This document shows, in pieces, positions 9,842 to 47,148 of a stretch of DNA of 48,066 bases (position 1 is the first letter of the stretch; every line of letters begins with the position of its first letter). Under the pieces are notes generated by a model, which had not been told where the DNA came from, did not search any database, and saw only the letters and a program-made list of their open reading frames with translations. The DNA lies in assembly GCA_025363475.1 (NCBI GenBank), contig JANYDS010000032.1, forward strand, positions 1 through 48,066, read 5' to 3'. A program made the position numbers and the translations under genes. The stretch comes from Terriglobia bacterium. Its GTDB lineage: Bacteria; Acidobacteriota; Terriglobia; Bryobacterales; Bryobacteraceae.

Positions 9842-11242
9842 GTGGGAAAGCTGTTTGAAGCGATAGGCAATATCTTCCGCGTTCCCGACCTCCGCAGGAG
9901 AGTAGGGTTCACCTTTCTCATGCTGGCCGTGTACCGTCTGGGTAGTTTTATCCCGACGCCCGGTATTAACGTGGTGCGGTGGCAAGACTTTTTGACGCGG
10001 CAGTCGGGGTCGATTTTCGGCTTCTTTGATCTGTTTGCGGGCGGTAATATCCGTCGCCTGTCCGTCTTTGCGCTGGGGATCATGCCGTATATCACGGCGT
10101 CGATCATTCTTCAGCTGCTGACGGTGGTTGTCCCGACGCTTGAAAAGCTTCAGAAGGAAGGTGAACTCGGCCGCCGCAAGATCACTCAGTGGACCCGTTA
10201 CCTGACGGTAGGTCTGGGTATCGCGCAGTCGTTTGGCATTTCAGTTGGTCTGCAGGGGATGTCTGACAATATTGTCATTAATCCTGGTGTAGGTTTTATT
10301 CTGCTGACGATTCTTTCGCTGACGACCGGTACGGCGTTCATCATGTGGCTCGGTGAACAGATTACTGAACGCGGCGTAGGTAATGGCATGTCGCTGATCA
10401 TCTTCACCGGCATCGTGGTTGGCGTTCCTTCAGCAATCGGCAACCTTTATACAAACGTTTTTGTGACCCACGAATGGAGCCCGCTGACGCTGGCGGTGGT
10501 CCTTGTGATGATGGTAGGGGTGGTCGCGTTCATCTGTCTGGTGGAAATGGGCGAACGGCGCATTCCGGTGCAGTATGCCAAGCGTGTGATCGGAAGGCGG
10601 GTGATGGGCGGGCAGTCTACGCATATGCCGCTGAAAGTGAACGCCGGCGGTGTGATTCCCGTGATCTTCGCTTCTTCGATTCTGGCGTTTCCGCAGACAG
10701 TGGCGAGCTTCCCTCTGGTTAAGAACAACGCCTGGCTCAGTAACACTTTGGGCGCGATCCGCCACGGTGAGCCGCTCTATGTGCTGCTTTTCGTCACGCT
10801 GATCATTTTCTTCTGTTTCTTTTACGTTTCCATCATTTTCAATCCGAATGAAGCGGCCGACAACATGCGCAAGTATGGTGGGTTTATCCCGGGGATTCGT
10901 CCGGGTCGCTCGACCTCGGATTATATGAACACGATCCTCACGCGGATCACGTTTGTAGGTGCGATTTACCTGTCAATTCTGTGTCTGATTCCGGACATCA
11001 TGATATCGGGAATTCACCTGCAGCATCTTCCTCTGATGGGGAATATGATCGACAAGGTTTTCCCCCGGTTCATTCTGGAGGGGCTCAATGTCCAGTTCTA
11101 CTTTGGTGGTACATCGCTGCTGATCGTGGTTGGTGTGGCGATGGATACGGTCAATCAGATTGAGGCGCAGTTGATTATGCGCCACTACGAAGGGTTTACG
11201 CCGCGGGCAGGCCGGATTCGCGGACGTCGCCGGTCTTTCTAG
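9842..11242 (+). CDS. secY: Protein translocase subunit SecY
   Basis: SecY forms the protein-conducting channel of the Sec translocon in the inner membrane. The 466 residues contain about ten hydrophobic segments. Signatures include SIFGFFDLFAGGNIRRLSVF with GIMPYITASIILQLL in TM2, and the cytoplasmic loop GERRIPVQYAKRVIGRR used by SecA and the ribosome. FNPNEAADNMRKYGGFIPGI lies in the C5 loop region. The start is GTG, 3 bases after rplO. N- and C-termini are normal, so the gene is intact. Confidence 0.98.
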   Translation: MGKLFEAIGNIFRVPDLRRRVGFTFLMLAVYRLGSFIPTPGINVVRWQDFLTRQSGSIFGFFDLFAGGNIRRLSVFALGIMPYITASIILQLLTVVVPTLEKLQKEGELGRRKITQWTRYLTVGLGIAQSFGISVGLQGMSDNIVINPGVGFILLTILSLTTGTAFIMWLGEQITERGVGNGMSLIIFTGIVVGVPSAIGNLYTNVFVTHEWSPLTLAVVLVMMVGVVAFICLVEMGERRIPVQYAKRVIGRRVMGGQSTHMPLKVNAGGVIPVIFASSILAFPQTVASFPLVKNNAWLSNTLGAIRHGEPLYVLLFVTLIIFFCFFYVSIIFNPNEAADNMRKYGGFIPGIRPGRSTSDYMNTILTRITFVGAIYLSILCLIPDIMISGIHLQHLPLMGNMIDKVFPRFILEGLNVQFYFGGTSLLIVVGVAMDTVNQIEAQLIMRHYEGFTPRAGRIRGRRRSF

Positions 11243-36541: not shown

Positions 36542-36884
36542 ATGACGGTGCTGGAAACACCCGGCTTTTTGCGGGATGCGGTCGCCGTGATGACGGACGA
36601 GGAGCGCATCGAAGCGATTTAGTTTCTCACTGCAAATCCCGAAGCAGGCGATGTGATGCCAGACACGGGCGGTGGGAGGAAATTTCGCTGGCGAGCGCAA
36701 GGCCGAGGGAAGCGAGGAGGCGTACAGGTCATCTAAATACTTCCACAATGAATCGCTGCCTCTGTTCCTTCTCAGCGTGTTCGCAAAAAACGAAAAGGCC
36801 AATTTGACAAAGGCCGGACGGAACGAGATGAAGAACCTGTTACCCCGTGTGGTGGCGGGCTACCGAAAAAGGATGGGGCCATGA
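36542..36884 (+). pseudogene. RelE/HigB-family toxin, nonsense and frameshift
   Basis: Frame 1 gives MTVLETPGFLRDAVAVMTDE, then ERIEAI, a TAG (36620-36622), FLTANPEAGDVMPDTGG and RGKRGGVQVI. One extra base near 36733-36740 then moves the reading to YFHNESLPLFLLSVFAKNEK, then ANLTKAGRNEMKNLLPRVVA. Joined, these are a full RelE/HigB-like mRNA interferase of about 113 residues with its typical end. The stop overlaps the ATG of the antitoxin relic (ATGA). Two separate lesions make a sequencing error alone less likely. Confidence 0.8.
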
Positions 36885-37103
36885 AAAAGAGTCCCGTTAC
36901 GAAGCAACGGTCACCGGGGGCGGGCAGTCGGATCATCACCAGTCTGAGGGAGGCTGTTGATTGGGTCGAAGGTAAGGACGTCGCAGTCCGCGTCACCACG
37001 TTGAACGTACCCGTGATTGACGTCCGCGCAACCCGTATGAGTCTGGGCCTGAGCCAGGCTGCGTTCGCGGCGAAATTCGGATTCCATCAGGCCACGCTTA
37101 AGC
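36881..37103 (+). pseudogene. HigA-type XRE antitoxin, truncated in the helix-turn-helix
   Basis: ATG overlapping the toxin stop. The product has a basic start (MKKSPVTKQRSPGAGSRIIT), SLREAVDWVEGKDVAVRVTT and then the HTH start MSLGLSQAAFAAKFGFHQAT followed by LK. The expected recognition-helix continuation (N-W-E-Q-G) is missing. After CTTAAG the sequence becomes the 13-base repeat TAATATCGGTAGC (37104) and unrelated DNA. The frame stays open to 37399 only by chance. It was a co-transcribed toxin-first TA pair. Confidence 0.78.
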
Positions 37104-37116
37104 TAATATCGGTAGC
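37104..37116 (+). repeat. 13-base repeat, copy A
   Basis: TAATATCGGTAGC, exact. It directly abuts the broken HigA-type gene on the left (after CTTAAGC). On the right are a hairpin and a tRNA-Ala 3' fragment. Confidence 0.9.
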
Positions 37117-37122
37117 TTCATT

Positions 37123-37146
37123 CCTGCGCGGGCGGTCCCGCGCAGG
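37123..37146 (+). repeat. Perfect 10-bp inverted repeat next to copy A
   Basis: CCTGCGCGGG (37123-37132), loop CGGT, CCCGCGCAGG (37137-37146). It lies 6 bases after repeat copy A, and its right arm doubles as the acceptor/T-arm part of the tRNA-Ala fragment. No T-tract on either side, so a terminator is unlikely. Confidence 0.8.
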
Positions 37147-37187
37147 GACTCGAACCCCGGACCTCCTGCGTGCGAAGCAGACGCTTT
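37136..37187 (-). pseudogene. 3' fragment of a tRNA-Ala gene
   Basis: On the minus strand, GCGTCTGCTTCGCACGCAGG forms an anticodon arm with loop TTCGCAC, anticodon CGC. GGTCCGGGGTTCGAGTCCCT then gives the variable region and T-arm, and CGCGGGA the acceptor 3' strand. The D-arm and 5' acceptor strand are absent and no CCA follows. It differs from the intact tRNA-Ala(CGC) at 20.6 kb. Such 3' fragments are what site-specific integration into tRNA genes leaves behind. Confidence 0.7.
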
Positions 37188-37267
37188 GGCTGTCAAGTAT
37201 AAATATCGCTAGCTGCGTCGGGCTGGCGGGGGTTTGTTCCAGCTCGCGCTGTACTGCAGCGCCATCT

Positions 37268-38614
37268 CTATCGCGCGCCCCGGGCCGGTGCCAGGCGCCG
37301 TGGGACTGCATTCACCCAATGCGGATCGTAGGTTGTGTCCATAATCTCGCCGCCTTTGACCACCATCCGGACGTTCTTCGTTGTCCCGATGTCCGTTAGT
37401 GGGTTTCCTTCAATCACGGTTAGATCAGCGAACTTTCCTGGTTCGACGCTGCCGAGATCCTTATCCTGGCCGAGTACCTCCGCGGCCCAAAGTGTAGCCC
37501 CCTGAATAGCCTTCATTGGCGGGATGCCGAGGTCGGTGAGCATCTGCATTTCGTAGTGCAGGCTAAGTCCGGGAACGATCTGTGCACAGCAGCCGGTATC
37601 CGTGGCAGCCAGCACCTTGCCGCCGGCTTCGGAATACTTTCGCAGAAACTCGGCCACGTGAGCATAGCCCGGCCGCTCGGGACCGGGGGGCGCGACCCAG
37701 GCGGCCTTCGCGTCTGCGGGGACGAAGGCCAGGCCCGGGTCCTTCGCGATTACGGCTGCCTGTGCGGTCCAGTCGTGCCAGCGATCGGTACCGCGCGCCC
37801 ACATCAGGTAAAGCGTGGGATTGACGTAGACACCCTGTGAAACGAGGTACTGGATGAGCGGTGGGAACAGCTTCGGATCGACCATGGCTTCGGGGGTGGT
37901 TCCCTTCGGATGAGGGTCCTGCCCGGTCTGTTCGAGAATCGCCCGCGCCATGGTGTCGATGTGCTCCATATGTTTGAAGCCCATTTCGACTGCCTTCTGA
38001 ATATTCTGCGTGTGGCCGAGGACCCGGAGATGAACGGCGGCGGCTTCTTCGATGACGGCCCGCAACTGGTCGTCGGTGATGGTGAGATCGACCTTGATGT
38101 GATCCACTCCGGCTTCCGCCAGCTGGCGCACGTAGGCGCGAGCTTCTTCGGGCGTGCGGACGTAGCTGCCGTCAGTGGTGGGAGGCCCGAGCGGGCCGGT
38201 GACCCGCGCACCTGAGACGAAGAGGCGCGGTCCTTTCATTTTCCCGGACTTGAGGGCTTCGCGTTCGGCGATGCTCCAGGCAGTGTCGTTGTGAATGTCA
38301 GCAATCGTGGTGACGCCCCAGGGCAAAAACATCGGGACCTGATAGTCGCGGAGGTGCACATGACCGTCGATGAGACCTGGGAGGATCGTGCGGCCGTTGA
38401 GGGAGATTACTTTGGTACCGGCGGGGTAAGAAATCCGCCCTTTTACGCCGACGGCTTTGACTCGGCCGCCTTCGGTGACAATGACGGCGTTGGCGAGGGG
38501 AGGTTTGCCGGTGCCGTCAATGAGCGTGCCACCTTCGAAAACAAGGACGTTACTCTGAGCATAGACGCATGAGAACGCAAGAAACGCCGAGACGAAAATG
38601 ACGGGGAGCCGCAT
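37268..38614 (-). CDS. Secreted amidohydrolase-family protein
   Basis: 448 residues from the ATG at 38614, which has GGTGGG just upstream. A TTG at 38635 would add seven residues. A signal peptide (RLPVIFVSAFLAFSCVYAQS) is followed by the composite beta-barrel start GGTLIDGTGKPPLANAVIVT. The metal site is LPGLIDGHVHLRDY (H-x-H), with further ligands in VLGHTQNIQKAVEMGFKHME and LAATDTGC. The C-terminus is ATLWAAEVLGQDKDLGSVEP, GKFADLTVIEGNP. The family includes imidazolonepropionase-like and peptidase enzymes; the substrate is not evident. Intact cargo between repeat copies A and B. Confidence 0.88.
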   Translation of the reverse strand: MRLPVIFVSAFLAFSCVYAQSNVLVFEGGTLIDGTGKPPLANAVIVTEGGRVKAVGVKGRISYPAGTKVISLNGRTILPGLIDGHVHLRDYQVPMFLPWGVTTIADIHNDTAWSIAEREALKSGKMKGPRLFVSGARVTGPLGPPTTDGSYVRTPEEARAYVRQLAEAGVDHIKVDLTITDDQLRAVIEEAAAVHLRVLGHTQNIQKAVEMGFKHMEHIDTMARAILEQTGQDPHPKGTTPEAMVDPKLFPPLIQYLVSQGVYVNPTLYLMWARGTDRWHDWTAQAAVIAKDPGLAFVPADAKAAWVAPPGPERPGYAHVAEFLRKYSEAGGKVLAATDTGCCAQIVPGLSLHYEMQMLTDLGIPPMKAIQGATLWAAEVLGQDKDLGSVEPGKFADLTVIEGNPLTDIGTTKNVRMVVKGGEIMDTTYDPHWVNAVPRRLAPARGAR

Positions 38615-38821
38615 ACCCACCAAGGATATCTCCAAAATTGCGTGGATGCTATTACGTGACGCCGAGCGGGCGTCAGGAATACGTAGATCACTCGATGTGC
38701 AAATAATCGATATCTCCTTGGCTTGGCCGCTCAGGGAAAGTCGCTTTCCTGCGGTTCCGAGCTTTGGCGACCGAAGGCGTAGATCCTCCGATCCGGCGTA
38801 GCGTTTACGAGCCGCTGACGA

Positions 38822-39820
38822 TTAACGGTACGTGTCCGGCCCAGTTGCCTCGGCTGGCGTTGTTCGCGCCGGCGGGCGCTGAACGAATCGTTTGACTTTC
38901 TTTCGGATCACGCGGTTCCACCACATCGCTGCACCGGTCACGAACATGGCTGCGGGCGCGAGTCCAAAAGTGGCCCAGACAAACTTCGTTGTCGAGTCGC
39001 AGAGTCCAGGACCGCCGCAGGGAATTCCGATGCCGTTAACGCGGCCGAAATGCAGGTACGCAAGCCAGTAGATGACCTGATCGACGGTGCGGGTACCGGC
39101 GTTGGCCGCAGTGGACGGCTCGATTCGGTCGGCGAGGTCCTGAAGCGGCTGCGGGTTGCCGAGATAAGCCCCGCTTATGCCAAACAACAGGAGGAACCCA
39201 AGACTCCAGAAGCCAATCACATTGTGCAGGTCCAGCGTGAAGCGTCGCCACCCTACGCTCCTTTGAACGGTCAGGCTCCGCCGCCAGCTCCTGATCCCCG
39301 GCCACCAAATGACGATTCCCGTCGATGCGAGCAGAATCAGTAAGAGTGCCCCGCCCCCATTGACCGCGCGACCCGTTGACCCGGCGAGCAGATCGTCGTG
39401 GAGTTCCGTGAGTCTCGATACCAGCCGGATGCCCAGCGGCACCGAATCGCCAAGGTCCGCTCCCGTGTACGGATTGAAGAGGCGATTCTTAACCCGCGGA
39501 CCTTCCTTGAGGAAGATGGTGACGGGTTGAACGGGATTCCGCTCCGGACGGATGCTGAAGACCGTGTATCCGGGATACGCGTGTGTTGCTGCGGCCTGCA
39601 ATTGCTGATCGGTTAGCCTTGCGCCCGACTCACTCACCGTGATCGGGTCACGGGTGGCTGCCCTATAGAGCTCATTACTGTAGACGAGAATGCTGCCCGT
39701 CACACTGGCGAGGAGAATGTACAGGCCGATGCCGATGCCGCTCCAGAGGTGAATTTGGAAGATCACTCTGCGCAGCCGGGTGGTCTGCGGTTGCCAGATC
39801 CACCGCTGCGAGTACGTCAT
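38822..39820 (-). CDS. PepSY-domain membrane protein
   Basis: 332 residues from the ATG at 39820, which has AAGGAGG 3 bases upstream. The longer frame to 39952 lacks support. The N-terminal TM pair shows the family motif FQIHLWSGIGIGLYILLASV followed by TGSILVYSNELYR. A periplasmic PepSY-like part follows (GYTVFSIRPERNPVQPVTIF), then LTELHDDLLAGSTGRAVNGG with further TM helices (LLLILLASTGIVIWWPG) and the conserved LDLHNVIGFW. Such proteins often accompany TonB siderophore receptors as ferric reductase-like partners; none is visible here. Confidence 0.85.
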   Translation of the reverse strand: MTYSQRWIWQPQTTRLRRVIFQIHLWSGIGIGLYILLASVTGSILVYSNELYRAATRDPITVSESGARLTDQQLQAAATHAYPGYTVFSIRPERNPVQPVTIFLKEGPRVKNRLFNPYTGADLGDSVPLGIRLVSRLTELHDDLLAGSTGRAVNGGGALLLILLASTGIVIWWPGIRSWRRSLTVQRSVGWRRFTLDLHNVIGFWSLGFLLLFGISGAYLGNPQPLQDLADRIEPSTAANAGTRTVDQVIYWLAYLHFGRVNGIGIPCGGPGLCDSTTKFVWATFGLAPAAMFVTGAAMWWNRVIRKKVKRFVQRPPARTTPAEATGPDTYR

Positions 39821-39823
39821 GAG

Positions 39824-39830
39824 CCTCCTT
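39824..39830 (-). promoter_or_regulatory. Shine-Dalgarno sequence deciding the PepSY gene start
   Basis: AAGGAGG on the minus strand, 3 bases before the ATG at 39820. It selects this start over the in-frame upstream ATG at 39952, which would add 44 unconserved residues. Confidence 0.75.
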
Positions 39831-39925
39831 ACAGGCCGGGCCGGCGGAGTCTGCCCGTGCGAGTGGCGAATGACCGATTCTATCCAAAATTGGAGCCGGT
39901 CCGTTTCCACCGGGACGTTAAGGCC

Positions 39926-39938
39926 TAATATCGGTAGC
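39926..39938 (+). repeat. 13-base repeat, copy B
   Basis: TAATATCGGTAGC, exact, preceded by GTTAAGGCC. It lies in the 322-base gap between the PepSY gene (divergent, start 39820) and the broken gene at 40143. The rest of that gap shows no gene or strong structure. Confidence 0.9.
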
Positions 39939-40142
39939 GACTCGCTCCGCATCGCTGGCGATAAGGGCCGTTATCAACAGGAATCTGCACTGGCTCGGTC
40001 AAGACCTCTTTCCGGGTTGCGCGTTATCCGCCCACGGCATCTCAATTGCACCCGCGGAGACCTCGGTAAACGCACGAAGAGGCCAGCTTTGGGCCGCGTG
40101 TTGGTGTAGGATGTCGTCAGATCGTCCAACTGGAGCAATCGC

Positions 40143-40786
40143 ATGAATATTCGTCACCTCGTGCCGTCCGTGAGCCGCTGGCTCCTGTCCATGGGATCCC
40201 TCATGTTGGCGGTCGGCCACGCGTCAAGCGCAGACCTCTCGAAGTTCAGGCGAATCGAGCCGCAGTTCATCGCGGCGCTGGGAGACCCCGCGGCCACCTC
40301 CGGCAACGGCGCGCAATCATGGGGCTTCTGGAACCAGGACCCGGCCCGCGCGCTTGTAAGCTGGACCACTACCCTCAATTGAAGGCGACCGGCGTGGCAC
40401 CAGCGCAGTGGAAATTCGACGCGTCGGATTGGTGGCTGGAAGAACACGGCTTGATCATGGAGAAGCCGACCTTTCCGCTGCCTGCTGGGAAATACCTCGT
40501 CACGGGTGACCGCGACGTTGCGACCGTGCTGACAGTTCATCCCAAGGACAAGGACGGCAATCAGCGGTGGGAACTCGCCGACGGCGCGACCCTCTGCGAT
40601 GTCACCCATCTCGGGTGCCGTTCCGCACGCTACACGCCGGCGAAGGCTGCCAATGCGTGCTCGCCCGCGAACGCTCCCACCAAGGGTTTTCCTGTGAATC
40701 CGGGGGCGGCCATGCCTGCCGTGAACGGCTGCCACAAGCAGGACTACACGGTTCTGATCGTCGTGGGGCTGCCTGTCACTCACTGA
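40143..40786 (+). pseudogene. Exported unknown protein, split by one frameshift
   Basis: The first frame gives a signal peptide (SRWLLSMGSLMLAVGHASSA) and ALGDPAATSGNGAQSWGFWN, then QDP. The second frame picks up at PRACKLDHYPQLKATGVAPA and continues with QWKFDASDWWLEEHGLIMEK. It ends in CHKQDYTVLIVVGLPVTH. The two join smoothly if one base is added near 40338-40345, giving about 214 residues with conserved-looking cysteines. The family is unknown to me. Only one lesion is seen, so a sequencing indel or a recent mutation are both possible. It is bounded by repeat copies B and C. Confidence 0.7.
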
Positions 40787-40793
40787 TATGCCG

Positions 40794-40806
40794 AAATATC
40801 GGTAGC
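40794..40806 (+). repeat. 13-base repeat, copy C
   Basis: AAATATCGGTAGC, one change from the other three copies. It starts 8 bases after the stop of the frameshifted gene, and its last base is part of the stop codon of a minus-strand gene tail on the other side. Confidence 0.85.
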
Positions 40807-40886
40807 TATTCGCCAGTCTCCAATGCTTCGCGTTCGACCCAGGTCTGTGCTTCTGGATCCCACGCGATCGTGTTTGCCACTGTCAT
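40806..40886 (-). pseudogene. C-terminal tail of an unidentified minus-strand gene
   Basis: A minus-strand frame ends MTVANTIAWDPEAQTWVERE, ALETGE, then a TAG that touches repeat copy C. The W-D-P-E-A-x-T-W-V pattern looks like a real protein end rather than noise (HicB-like proteins have a similar strand). Nothing upstream on this strand looks conserved. The remaining 200 bases to 41100 hold no recognisable gene. Confidence 0.3.
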
Positions 40887-41112
40887 GTCGGCATCAATTA
40901 ATAGCTCGCCAACGGCGAAAAATAAAGAAGACATTAATAAGGGACGGAATGCCGGTCGCTCGGGCGCAATCGGGCAGAACAAACCGCAATCGGTAATTCT
41001 TGGCCCTATTCCCAAGTTCGGGAGATTCGGCTTAGATGATCCCGCATCAGCAGCTTTTCCCCTTCTGCGGCCTGAGTGCGATGTTGCGATCAAGAAGTAG
41101 ACAGGGGTACAG

Positions 41113-41290
41113 ATGCCGCTGTTCAAGACCCGCAGCGCCGCCGTGTTCGGCATCGACGCGCAGCCGGTGGATGTGGAAGTCGATCATTTCCGCGGCGGCG
41201 TGGCGCGGGATTTCATGCGGGTCGGGATGTGGGACGCCTCGGACTCAGTTCAGGCGGTCTTCATGCGGGTATATTCCGGGACGTGCGCTG
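41113..41290 (+). pseudogene. Remnant of a ComM/YifB Mg-chelatase-like gene (N-terminus)
   Basis: Starts MPLFKTRSAAVFGIDAQPVD, then VEVDHFRGG and RDFMRVGMWDASDSVQAVFM. The ComM/YifB N-terminus reads MLFKTRSAAVxGIDAxLVDV, then E-V-D-x-x-x-G and VGLPDxAVxESRERV, so the match is clear for 25 residues and degrades after. ComM is a hexameric helicase for branch migration in transformation. The AAA+ domain is absent. This is a decayed fragment. Confidence 0.65.
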
Positions 41291-41487
41291 GTAGGAGTCA
41301 TTCGAGGGAAGGTCAGGTCCCGCAAACAGAAGAACGCCCCGGCTCGCATGGACGCTGATCGCGGCCAACCCGGATCGTATTCTCCGGGGCGCATTCACGT
41401 ATATTGATTGAAGCCCGCGGTGACCTGCGCTTAACTGCAACCTGGAGACGGGTTAGGCCACCGACGATACCAACGAAGAGGATTCCG

Positions 41488-42690
41488 ATGACTAAAAGAC
41501 TCGCAGTATCGCTTCTGCTGTGCGGCAGTGCGTGCGTCGCGGCCAGCGCTGTTGTCGTGCAGGAAAAAATCGGCGACGTTCGCGCGCTGTACGATGGCAA
41601 GCTTCTGCCGGATTTGCAGGTCAGCACATTCCGGCATGTCGACCGACTCTTCCCGACGCACAAGATCGCGCGCGGCAAGTCCGTGTATCCGCTTCCGGCC
41701 AGCCCTGCGCCGCTCAAGGACCTCGAGTTCACCAGTGGCAACCGGAAGTACGATCTGGCGGAGTTTCTTTCGCTCGGCCGGGTCGCGGGGCTGCTCATTA
41801 TCAAAGACGGAAAGATCGTCCTTGAGGACTATGAACTCGGCAACACGGATAAGTCGCGCTGGGTCTCGTGGTCGATGGCGAAGTCCATTTGTTCGACGCT
41901 GGTGGGTGCAGCGCTAAAGGAAGGGCTCATCGGGAGCCTGGATGATCCGCTGGCCAGGTATCTGCCGGAGTTGGCAGGCGGAGCGTATGGCAAGGCAACG
42001 GTGCGCAATGTTCTCCAGATGTCATCCGGCGTGAAATGGGATGAGACGTATACTGACCCCAACTCCGACCGCCGGAAGATGCTGAACCTGCAAATTCAGC
42101 AGAAGCCGGGCGAGATCATCAGGTTCCTCGGGACGCTCCCCAGGGCGGGCGACCCAGGTACTATCTGGAACTACAGCACGGGCGAGACTCATATGATCGG
42201 CGCGGTGTTGCGCGCCGCGGTCAAGAGGCCGCTGGCTGCTTATTTGTCGGAGAAGATCTGGTCGAAATTCGGCATGGAAGACGATGGCACGTGGTGGCTG
42301 GAGTCACCGGACGGTCTGGAAGTCGGCGGAAGCGGGCTCAGCGCGACGCTGCGCGATTACGGGCGCTTCGGCGAATTTGTCCGCCTCGGCGCAATGACCG
42401 GAAACGAGTCTGTTGTGCCTGACGGCTGGTTCGATGAAGCCGGCAAATCGCACGTCATCGGCGGCAAGCCGGTCGATTACGGTTATATGTGGTGGACCTA
42501 CGGGGCGAACGCTGCGCCGGAGCATGAGGGCGCGTTCCGCGCGACCGGGATTTTCGGGCAGGGGCTGTACATCAACCGGCGGGAGAGGGTGGTGATCGCA
42601 ATGTGGAGTGCGCGTCCGAAGCCTTCGGGCAGAGCGGTCATCAACGAGAACGATTTCTTCGCGGGCGTCGTGGACGCGCTGCGGAAGTAG
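41488..42690 (+). CDS. Serine beta-lactamase-like hydrolase, exported
   Basis: 400 residues from MTKRLAVSLLLCGSACVAAS (signal peptide). The frame is open to 41404, but the ATG at 41488 has AAGAGGA upstream. The S-x-x-K nucleophile is in VSWSMAKSICSTLVGAALKE, the Y-x-x motif in TIWNYSTGETHMIGAVLRAA and the late GIFGQGLYINRRERVVIAMW. This is the class C-like/6-aminohexanoate-dimer hydrolase (NylB) branch of Pfam beta-lactamase. It may cleave small amides or esters; drug resistance is not implied. Intact cargo between repeats C and D. Confidence 0.88.
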   Translation: MTKRLAVSLLLCGSACVAASAVVVQEKIGDVRALYDGKLLPDLQVSTFRHVDRLFPTHKIARGKSVYPLPASPAPLKDLEFTSGNRKYDLAEFLSLGRVAGLLIIKDGKIVLEDYELGNTDKSRWVSWSMAKSICSTLVGAALKEGLIGSLDDPLARYLPELAGGAYGKATVRNVLQMSSGVKWDETYTDPNSDRRKMLNLQIQQKPGEIIRFLGTLPRAGDPGTIWNYSTGETHMIGAVLRAAVKRPLAAYLSEKIWSKFGMEDDGTWWLESPDGLEVGGSGLSATLRDYGRFGEFVRLGAMTGNESVVPDGWFDEAGKSHVIGGKPVDYGYMWWTYGANAAPEHEGAFRATGIFGQGLYINRRERVVIAMWSARPKPSGRAVINENDFFAGVVDALRK

Positions 42691-42886
42691 CCAAAAGAGG
42701 GAACCCATAAGTCGCGCGCCACTAACGGCGCAGAGTCGCTGCAAGCGATTCATTGGAAGGATGTTGTGCCGATAGGGAACGCACCGTCCGGTGTTCGGAA
42801 CTTACTCGCAAACCTTTACATTTCAGGCCGAAGTACTGATCGCTGTGACAGGCTTCTTGAAAATCAGTTTGGCGGGCGTTAACACG

Positions 42887-42899
42887 TAATATCGGTAGC
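42887..42899 (+). repeat. 13-base repeat, copy D
   Basis: TAATATCGGTAGC, exact, preceded by GTTAACACG. It lies in the 333-base gap between the beta-lactamase-like gene and the exported protein at 43024. Nothing else in that gap is recognisable. Confidence 0.9.
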
Positions 42900-45717: not shown

Positions 45718-45835
45718 AGTTCGAATCCACGTTGGGGCCGAAGAAAAAGGCACCAAAACAGGCGAGCATCGCTCAAGTTCTCCTAATAAAATCATCGAGA
45801 TAGCGCCGAGTTCGACAATTGATAAACGGCTTCCC
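45718..45835 (+). repeat. 118-bp diverged direct repeat, copy 1
   Basis: Begins AGTTCGAATCCACGTTGGGG. Its first 28 bases differ in one position from copy 2 at 47031, and similarity continues to about 45835 with scattered changes. Copy 1 runs on into the second LPIVDTFRTF relic. The two copies flank the nucleotidyltransferase two-gene module. Confidence 0.75.
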
Positions 45836-47030: not shown

Positions 47031-47148
47031 AGTTCGAATCCACGTTGGGGTCGAAGAATAAAGGCACAAAGCCCGCGAAAATCGTTTGAGCACTCTTAAT
47101 GGAATCAACGCGATAGCAGCAATTTCGAGAATCGATAACTGCCTCCCC
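47031..47148 (+). repeat. 118-bp diverged direct repeat, copy 2
   Basis: Partner of the copy at 45718. Similarity ends at 47148, where the sequence changes to AAACCCCG-type DNA leading to the mobile-element end. This suggests the element inserted at, or truncated, this repeat. Confidence 0.75.

Follow-up and report, generated by a model that had tools for sequence, protein, structure and literature searches.

The DNA analysed here, a stretch of 48,066 nucleotides from a Terriglobia bacterium of the family Bryobacteraceae (GenBank assembly GCA_025363475.1, contig JANYDS010000032.1; hereafter the window), carries a repeated 13-base word, TAATATCGGTAGC, between blocks of genes. The comparison with related genomes supports the assignment of this word to a dif-like recombination site found at gene-block edges in soil acidobacteria. 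We propose that these sites probably constitute an integron-like cassette platform, in which they would most likely be used by a XerC-like integrase and in which their spacers would serve as slot addresses.

The preliminary description of this DNA had reported three exact copies of the 13-mer and one copy with a single change, all in the same orientation. All four were verified, the exact ones at 37104, 39926 and 42887 and the one-mismatch copy at 40794, always on the + strand. The whole host genome (4.16 Mb, 96% complete, in 96 contigs) has the exact word nowhere else than in this cluster. When up to two mismatches are allowed, the window holds six matches against a shuffle mean of 0.35, including a degenerate copy at 37201 (AAATATCGCTAGC), absent from that description, and an isolated match at 10045. 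The 11-mer ATATCGGTAGC has five matches in the host genome, four of them in the window cluster (reversed control, 2), and WAATATCGSTAGC is present without mismatch at only five places, all in the cluster; outside it, one-mismatch copies of WAATATCGSTAGC are at the background level (11 against 13 in the reversed control). Among 61 genomes (host and relatives), AATATCGGTAGC is present in 17, with multiple copies in several genomes of the same genus (7 in G016, 6 in G009, 4 in G011), which are adjacent, in the same orientation and 2.5-2.9 kb apart in two cases. Single copies of AATATCGGTAGC carry little weight, because its reversed control also gives scattered single matches in these genomes.

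The flanks of the repeat copies reveal a second arm at a fixed distance. The 13-mer thus combines two spacer bases with the right arm of a 28-bp site made of an 11-bp left arm, a 6-bp spacer and the 11-bp right arm ATATCGGTAGC, the arms being two imperfect inverted repeats around the spacer, as in dif. The consensus of 95 exact sites is GNGCG(T/A)TA(T/A)-N6-ATATCGGTAGC(T/C)A. Beyond the two arms the flanks of the window copies have no common sequence, as had been stated before. At 39926 and 42887 the TTAA described in front of the copies falls within the left arm, whereas the one before 37104 is out of register and comes from a truncated nadS gene. The two earlier suggestions of a recombination or insertion core and of a cassette boundary are supported together: the word lies in a core of the tyrosine-recombinase type, at block boundaries.

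The pattern TA-N7-ATATCGGTAGC was found in 40 of the 237 genomes of the family (171 matches, summed from the table, with up to 16 per genome; reversed control, 5), and the spacing control TA-N6-ATATCGGTAGC in none of 19 genomes. The stringent pattern GCGTTAW-N6-ATATCGGTAGC gave 63 matches in 21 of 257 genomes of the order and none in the reversed control; all 21 genomes are among the 237 of the family, none among the 20 in the rest of the order. A weight matrix at a threshold of 12 yielded 416 matches against 3 in the reversed sequence, on loci that were also its training loci, picked for holding sites, and with near-palindromic sites counted on both strands and merged later. One site (L174:4245-4275, G117:C257) has a perfectly palindromic core, with two right arms around TGGGCA.

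Spacer order, cargo and junctions

The order of the spacers was compared in 60 runs with at least two sites, from 20 genomes. Within an array the sites recur in one orientation, in runs of up to seven, with up to seven different spacers per array and about a dozen in one genome. In the genome G084 the order along the site direction is TGGGCA, GTGGTG, TTCGGG, CGCGCC, GACCTG, (CTACCA), GGTTC(G/A), (CCGTTG), TCGCTA, TTGGAA, CACCTC, GTACCA, and separate arrays hold subsets in that order; in one array, CAGTTA follows TTCGGG and the run ends there, and the array on contig C71 is interrupted by one reverse site. The genomes G117, G184 and G189 each have their own order. For pairs of arrays of one genome sharing two spacers, 68 comparisons agree and none disagrees (54 and 0 without the head site), against a mean agreement of 0.50 and a maximum of 0.75 in 2000 shuffles. 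The contigs fetched after the order rule had been stated gave 5 comparisons with a new run, none disagreeing, for a total of 71 against 0. Of the 26 runs with the head spacer (TGGG), 12 consist of that site alone; the head spacer comes first in 25 of the 26, and in 13 of the 14 that have several sites. At one array head (L149:12675-12813, G184:C155), a module of 133 bp runs from the head site TGGGCC to a site GCGGCA and begins like other integrase-promoter sides. Spacers are also close to unique within a contig: one direct same-spacer pair was observed where 17.1 were expected from within-genome shuffling (smallest of 2000, 7), whereas inverted same-spacer pairs were observed five times.

The segments between sites were studied on 70 modules from 5 genomes (17 contigs), with intervals longer than 13 kb excluded. 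Their size ranges from 132 bp to 10.1 kb, with a median of 2.1 kb. Among 139 heuristically called open reading frames (ORFs), 77 are oriented along the site direction and 62 against it; these ORFs were looked for inside modules, so that the counts say nothing on genes crossing sites. Pfam matches were obtained for 23 of the 30 module proteins scanned, out of 79 with at least 230 aa, and the families encountered are diverse: KdpA, MacB/FtsX permeases, DUF3738, Ser/Thr kinases, amidohydrolase, beta-lactamase-fold hydrolase, GH44, GH36, a TPP enzyme, LMF1 and others. Protein homology was detected in none of the 26 same-slot pairs of one genome and in 12 of the 614 other pairs, and the exact 6-nt spacers are retained despite a full turnover of the cargo; blastn found stretches in common near the module ends in 10 of these 26 pairs. 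A tRNA gene as integration target was considered, on account of the window's tRNA-like scrap and of the tRNA at the G007 site, and rejected, a tRNA being called at 4 of the 38 loci scanned and just that of G007 lying at a site (L143:297-398, G007:C67, where a tRNA-Pro call at 297-370 ends a few bases before the site at 379-398).

Homologous loci of relatives were then compared, as the preliminary description had proposed, and the outcome favours recombination at the site: the junctions break at the core, one flank is found joined to different blocks, and the nadS gene of the window is cut inside the spacer. No relative was found in which the window's own blocks are joined without a site. After removal of sites near contig ends, here and in the folding analysis, 12 pairs of sites have the same right flank and different left flanks, and 12 the reverse; with other settings 6 same-right and 17 same-left pairs were obtained, with identical spacers in 5 of the 6 and 8 of the 17. 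Simple divergence of the promoter side explains some of the same-left pairs, which are head sites. A chimera was found at the spacer CCGCCC, where the left flank of G189:C150 is that of C116 (95%) and its right flank that of C161 (100%). Two contigs of G117 share a segment of ~110 bp (99% identity) flanked by inverted CGCGCC sites; the same flank is joined to one end of it in one contig and to the opposite end in the other, as in an inversion. A requirement for spacer identity would fit the chimera, the inversion and the pair counts, but not the same-left pairs, of which only 8 of 17 share the spacer.

The same order could also have arisen by descent, an ancestral array being duplicated and its site order inherited, with cargo replaced by homologous recombination in the terminal stretches or otherwise; the sites would then be relics or cassette boundaries and the spacer no address. 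The common stretches at module ends could be used for such recombination, and the weak order between genomes, given below, would be in agreement with it. We regard this explanation as unlikely, given the lack of cargo protein homology in the 26 same-slot pairs, the survival of exact spacers through that turnover, the breaks of the chimera and of the inversion at the core, and the depletion of direct same-spacer pairs, though the last feature would likewise be expected if an array with unique spacers were duplicated.

The integrase at the array head

At the loci inspected, sites with the TGGGC spacer adjoin the start of a gene encoding a 307-aa tyrosine recombinase, transcribed away from the array. 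The protein matches PF00589 (E 5e-23) and PF02899, and scores 122.3 bits with the XerC equivalog model, below its cut-off of 335.15. The residues R154, K181, H251, R254, H277 and Y286, which we take to be the catalytic R-K-H-R-H-Y of tyrosine recombinases, are invariant in 15 integrase sequences. In the close subfamily (73-100% identity), 15 of 19 loci have the right arm, with at most 3 mismatches, 19-33 nt before the start codon; in a sister subfamily none of 11 loci has it there, and this subfamily is not tied to the arm. Taken by position, the integrase most likely acts on these sites. Another type of integrase next to a site of G016 had first been taken as the partner, before the more likely one was found at the TGGGC sites; its gene (L138:3631-3906, G016:C639), distant from that of the head integrase, starts ~130 bp past the site and is cut by the contig end.

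In a search of named genomes, the best 80 of 374 stretches encoding an integrase relative were kept; the integrase P0001 (G116:C19) is found as the same protein in PMYB01000015.1. Among these 80, the close subfamily occurs in records of Bryobacterales, Bryobacteraceae, Solibacter and Terriglobia metagenome-assembled genomes (MAGs) and in one labelled Sulfotelmatobacter, and the sister subfamily (about 50-60% identity) also in Acidobacteriaceae, e.g., Occallatibacter savannae and Granulicella. Seven plasmid records hold integrase relatives at 45-55% identity, two of them from Deinococcus, and phage records gave no match at E ≤ 1e-30. In IMG/VR, 27 integrase loci were found, two of them partial, at 89% and 94%; the contigs L376, L382, L395 and L396, which hold these partial close-subfamily integrases or a stringent site, could be host contamination or vehicles. 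Within the family, an integrase match at E ≤ 1e-20 is present in 35 of 40 site-bearing and 91 of 197 other genomes, a weak test, the matches including the sister subfamily and weaker relatives.

A sigma-70-like candidate promoter (TTGATG, 17 nt, TAATGT), recognized by eye, lies beyond the site, and the site would therefore sit in the leader of the integrase gene, where a regulatory side role is possible. Some sister integrase genes (L264, L267, L269, L272, L280, L282, L301, L305) have a different 11-6-11 palindrome just before their start codon, with TTATCG inner arms e.g. in L264, L301 and L305, perhaps sites of their own. Alignment A2 did not include L273. Both the leader position and these palindromes at the same place would be expected of an autoregulatory operator, so the repeat could be read as the binding site of a regulator, an option that had been raised for the window. 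For the sites as a whole this is hardly credible, since junctions break at the core, the 6-nt spacer varies but keeps its order and uniqueness, and the blocks that they separate have genes in both directions, in the numbers given above.

An integron has a head integrase with its own site and a one-direction cassette array, and integrase-less arrays also occur. The acidobacterial loci are similar in that an integrase stands at the head, beside its own site, and is transcribed away from an array of same-orientation sites; moreover, the left arm GCGTTA resembles the attC core GTTRRRY. A classical integron, or an integrase-less cassette array (CALIN), with unusual attC sites is nevertheless very improbable. 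Some sites had a hairpin-like appearance (e.g. L066, L053:2866), yet testing the flanked sites gave a negative result: neither partner arms (TAACGC, 7 in the 190-nt left flanks of 165 sites and 6.2 in shuffles) nor folding energy (the same as in shuffles, 60 of the 165 sites) are in excess beside the sites. With the integron integrase model TIGR02249 the protein reaches 31.4 bits for a cut-off of 265, residues 218-286 alone being matched. The cassettes are large, their genes face both ways, and the acidobacterial slots keep a fixed spacer order, whereas integron cassettes have no fixed places. An AlphaFold2 model of the integrase (pLDDT 86, pTM 0.62) has no extra helix visible by eye, and Foldseek placed an archaeal Xer at the top, with Cre, XerA and the integron integrase 2a3v close behind, 2a3v being in the top five. 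On the specific insertion that PMC8138268, which treats recombinase classes, describes for the integron integrase, these structures weigh neither way. An integron integrase above the curated cut-off (TIGR02249, E 2.5e-122), is encoded at G017:C386:1552-2505 (L141), the sole case among 19 same-genus genomes.

The array of the window

In the window, the blocks enclosed by five sites of one orientation and one reverse site hold a tRNA-like scrap, the amidohydrolase together with PepSY, a decayed exported-protein gene and a serine hydrolase, as listed here:

36881..37102 (+), truncated nadS/higA-type antitoxin gene, distal half replaced by the array
37089..37116 (+), hybrid site 1, left half from nadS, spacer AAGCTA at 37100-37105, right arm at 37106-37116
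37143..37198 (-), tRNA-like scrap with anticodon and T arms, block of ~80 bp, RF00005 22.6 bits, short of the gathering score (29)
37186..37213 (+), degenerate site 2, spacer GTATAA, right arm ATATCGCTAGC, site-model score 16.4
37268..38635 (-), cargo, exported amidohydrolase, PF01979
38822..39952 (-), cargo, PepSY-TM protein, PF03929, as in the ORF list
39911..39938 (+), site 3, spacer GGCCTA at 39922-39927, score 26.9
39954..39981 (-), reverse-oriented near-palindromic site, spacer CGGCCC, score 21.8
40011..40786 (+), cargo, decayed exported-protein gene, matching G223 (L216) at 87-91% and G008 (L133) at 76%
40779..40806 (+), site 4, spacer GCCGAA at 40790-40795, score 29.9
41404..42690 (+), cargo, beta-lactamase-fold serine hydrolase, PF00144, ORF as listed, start may be further in
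42872..42899 (+), site 5, spacer CACGTA at 42883-42888, score 30.3, the best-preserved site of the window

The gene at the left end had been called a broken HigA. It is truncated and matches NadS (NF041265) weakly, at 27.9 bits, under the cut-off of 60. Homologues of nadS at E ≤ 1e-8 are present in 29 of 151 genomes, the host included. By eye, the homology to the nadS genes of seven relatives stops inside the spacer, after GCCACGCTTAAG, and a simple motif search up to 46000 recognized no distal half. Site 1 scores -3.4 and fails the site model because the left arm is missing, its left half being nadS. The tRNA-like scrap received no ARAGORN call.

Concerning the cargo, Pfam bears out the earlier identification of the amidohydrolase, PepSY and hydrolase blocks, the last as a beta-lactamase-family serine hydrolase, and a ComM relic that had also been named had no Pfam or NCBIfam match in the window protein scans, which leaves that label unconfirmed. 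Among the 101 genomes searched, no close relative of the amidohydrolase was found within the genus: 10 of them match at E ≤ 1e-40, the best beyond the host at 47% identity and in another family. The listed start of the PepSY-TM ORF overruns site 3, and a later start near 39820, chosen by eye, is more likely. For the decayed exported-protein gene, the match to G223 and G008 stops at 40786, which is the stop codon and overlaps the left arm of site 4. Site 5 is the only window site that matches the stringent pattern, and its spacer CACGTA is also found in G210:C215 and G211:C91. Since the host genome gave no close integrase match and the sites are degenerate, we read the window as the partly decayed remnant of an array that lacks an integrase and has one of its ends within the nadS antitoxin gene. 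Further on, the window holds a direct repeat at 45718-45835 and 47031-47147 (119 columns, 77% identical).

Proposed mechanism and known systems

On the basis of these comparisons, a XerC-like integrase of Bryobacterales would use the 28-bp dif-like site. Its gene heads the array, with one site in what would be its own leader, and the same-orientation sites cut the array into whole-gene cassettes of ~0.1-10 kb. Strand exchange would need matching spacers, so that neighbours with unlike spacers could not loop a cassette out, and exchange, with the direction of cassette flow that we infer, would take place with a site of like spacer, located on a different array or on DNA that enters the cell. 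In that case the spacer would be an address, the slot order being kept while the cargo changes. That this is a natural address-coded platform, in which a dedicated Xer-like integrase and mutually incompatible 6-bp spacers swap genes slot by slot between arrays, is a tentative proposal that we hold at slightly below an even chance.

Several observations weigh against this mechanism as a whole. The order comparisons share arrays and hence are not independent, and between genomes the order is weak, with 10 agreements and 1 disagreement, or 6 against 2 (p 0.15) with the first five spacer bases and without the head site; more contigs gave 21 against 3, head site included. The direct same-spacer pair mentioned above is in G009:C68, and identical spacers are found in just 8 of the 17 same-left pairs. 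The junctions are comparative and come from MAG contigs, in which misassembly is possible. Four of the 19 close-subfamily loci fail the arm criterion (L203 with 4 mismatches in the normal position, L197 with Ns and a start that is displaced, L202 and L208 without a site), and two of the 15 others need 3 mismatches, a level reached by 9% of shuffles. Finally, the host genome has no close integrase match at E ≤ 1e-20, although this genome is incomplete and the integrase could be missing from it.

Engineered recombinase-mediated cassette exchange relies on heterospecific lox sites, of which matching pairs exchange while mismatch locks the neighbours. The proposed role of spacer mismatch as a neighbour lock is the same, whereas the acidobacterial arrays are natural and hold up to seven spacers, against usually two site types. 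According to PMC13141974, the dif modules of Acinetobacter depend on XerC/XerD acting on pdif sites with a 28-bp 11-6-11 core, whose spacers vary between sites and which enclose cargo, and excision and inversion occur between sites with identical or nearly identical spacers, which supports the spacer-matching rule by analogy. The acidobacterial arrays share the core, the site-to-site differences of the 6-bp spacer and the cargo between sites, and differ by their one-way sites, the dedicated integrase associated with their head and their ordered spacers, where dif modules have alternating C and D orientation and XerC/XerD. In the R64 shufflon, as presented in PMC11852207, Rci acts on 12-7-12 sfx sites and inverts segments of one gene. 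The conserved right arm, the more variable left arm and the multiple sites of one tyrosine recombinase are common to both; unlike the inversion of alternative ends of one gene, however, whole unrelated genes lie between mostly direct sites with differing 6-bp spacers.

In the open-access literature, no title or abstract opening was found to describe such a system; most subscription papers and all preprints were outside this scope, so a report may exist. A term search in the accessible text of the Solibacter genome paper (PMC3174227) found neither "integron" nor "cassette". As a principle, addressing by spacer exists in engineered cassette exchange and, more loosely, in dif modules. If the proposal is true, integrons would not be the sole dedicated gene-cassette platform of bacteria, and full-size genes would be carried in soil acidobacteria with spacer identity as the addressing code. 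It would also offer a testable route of gene flow in these bacteria and could yield several mutually orthogonal sites served by a single recombinase.

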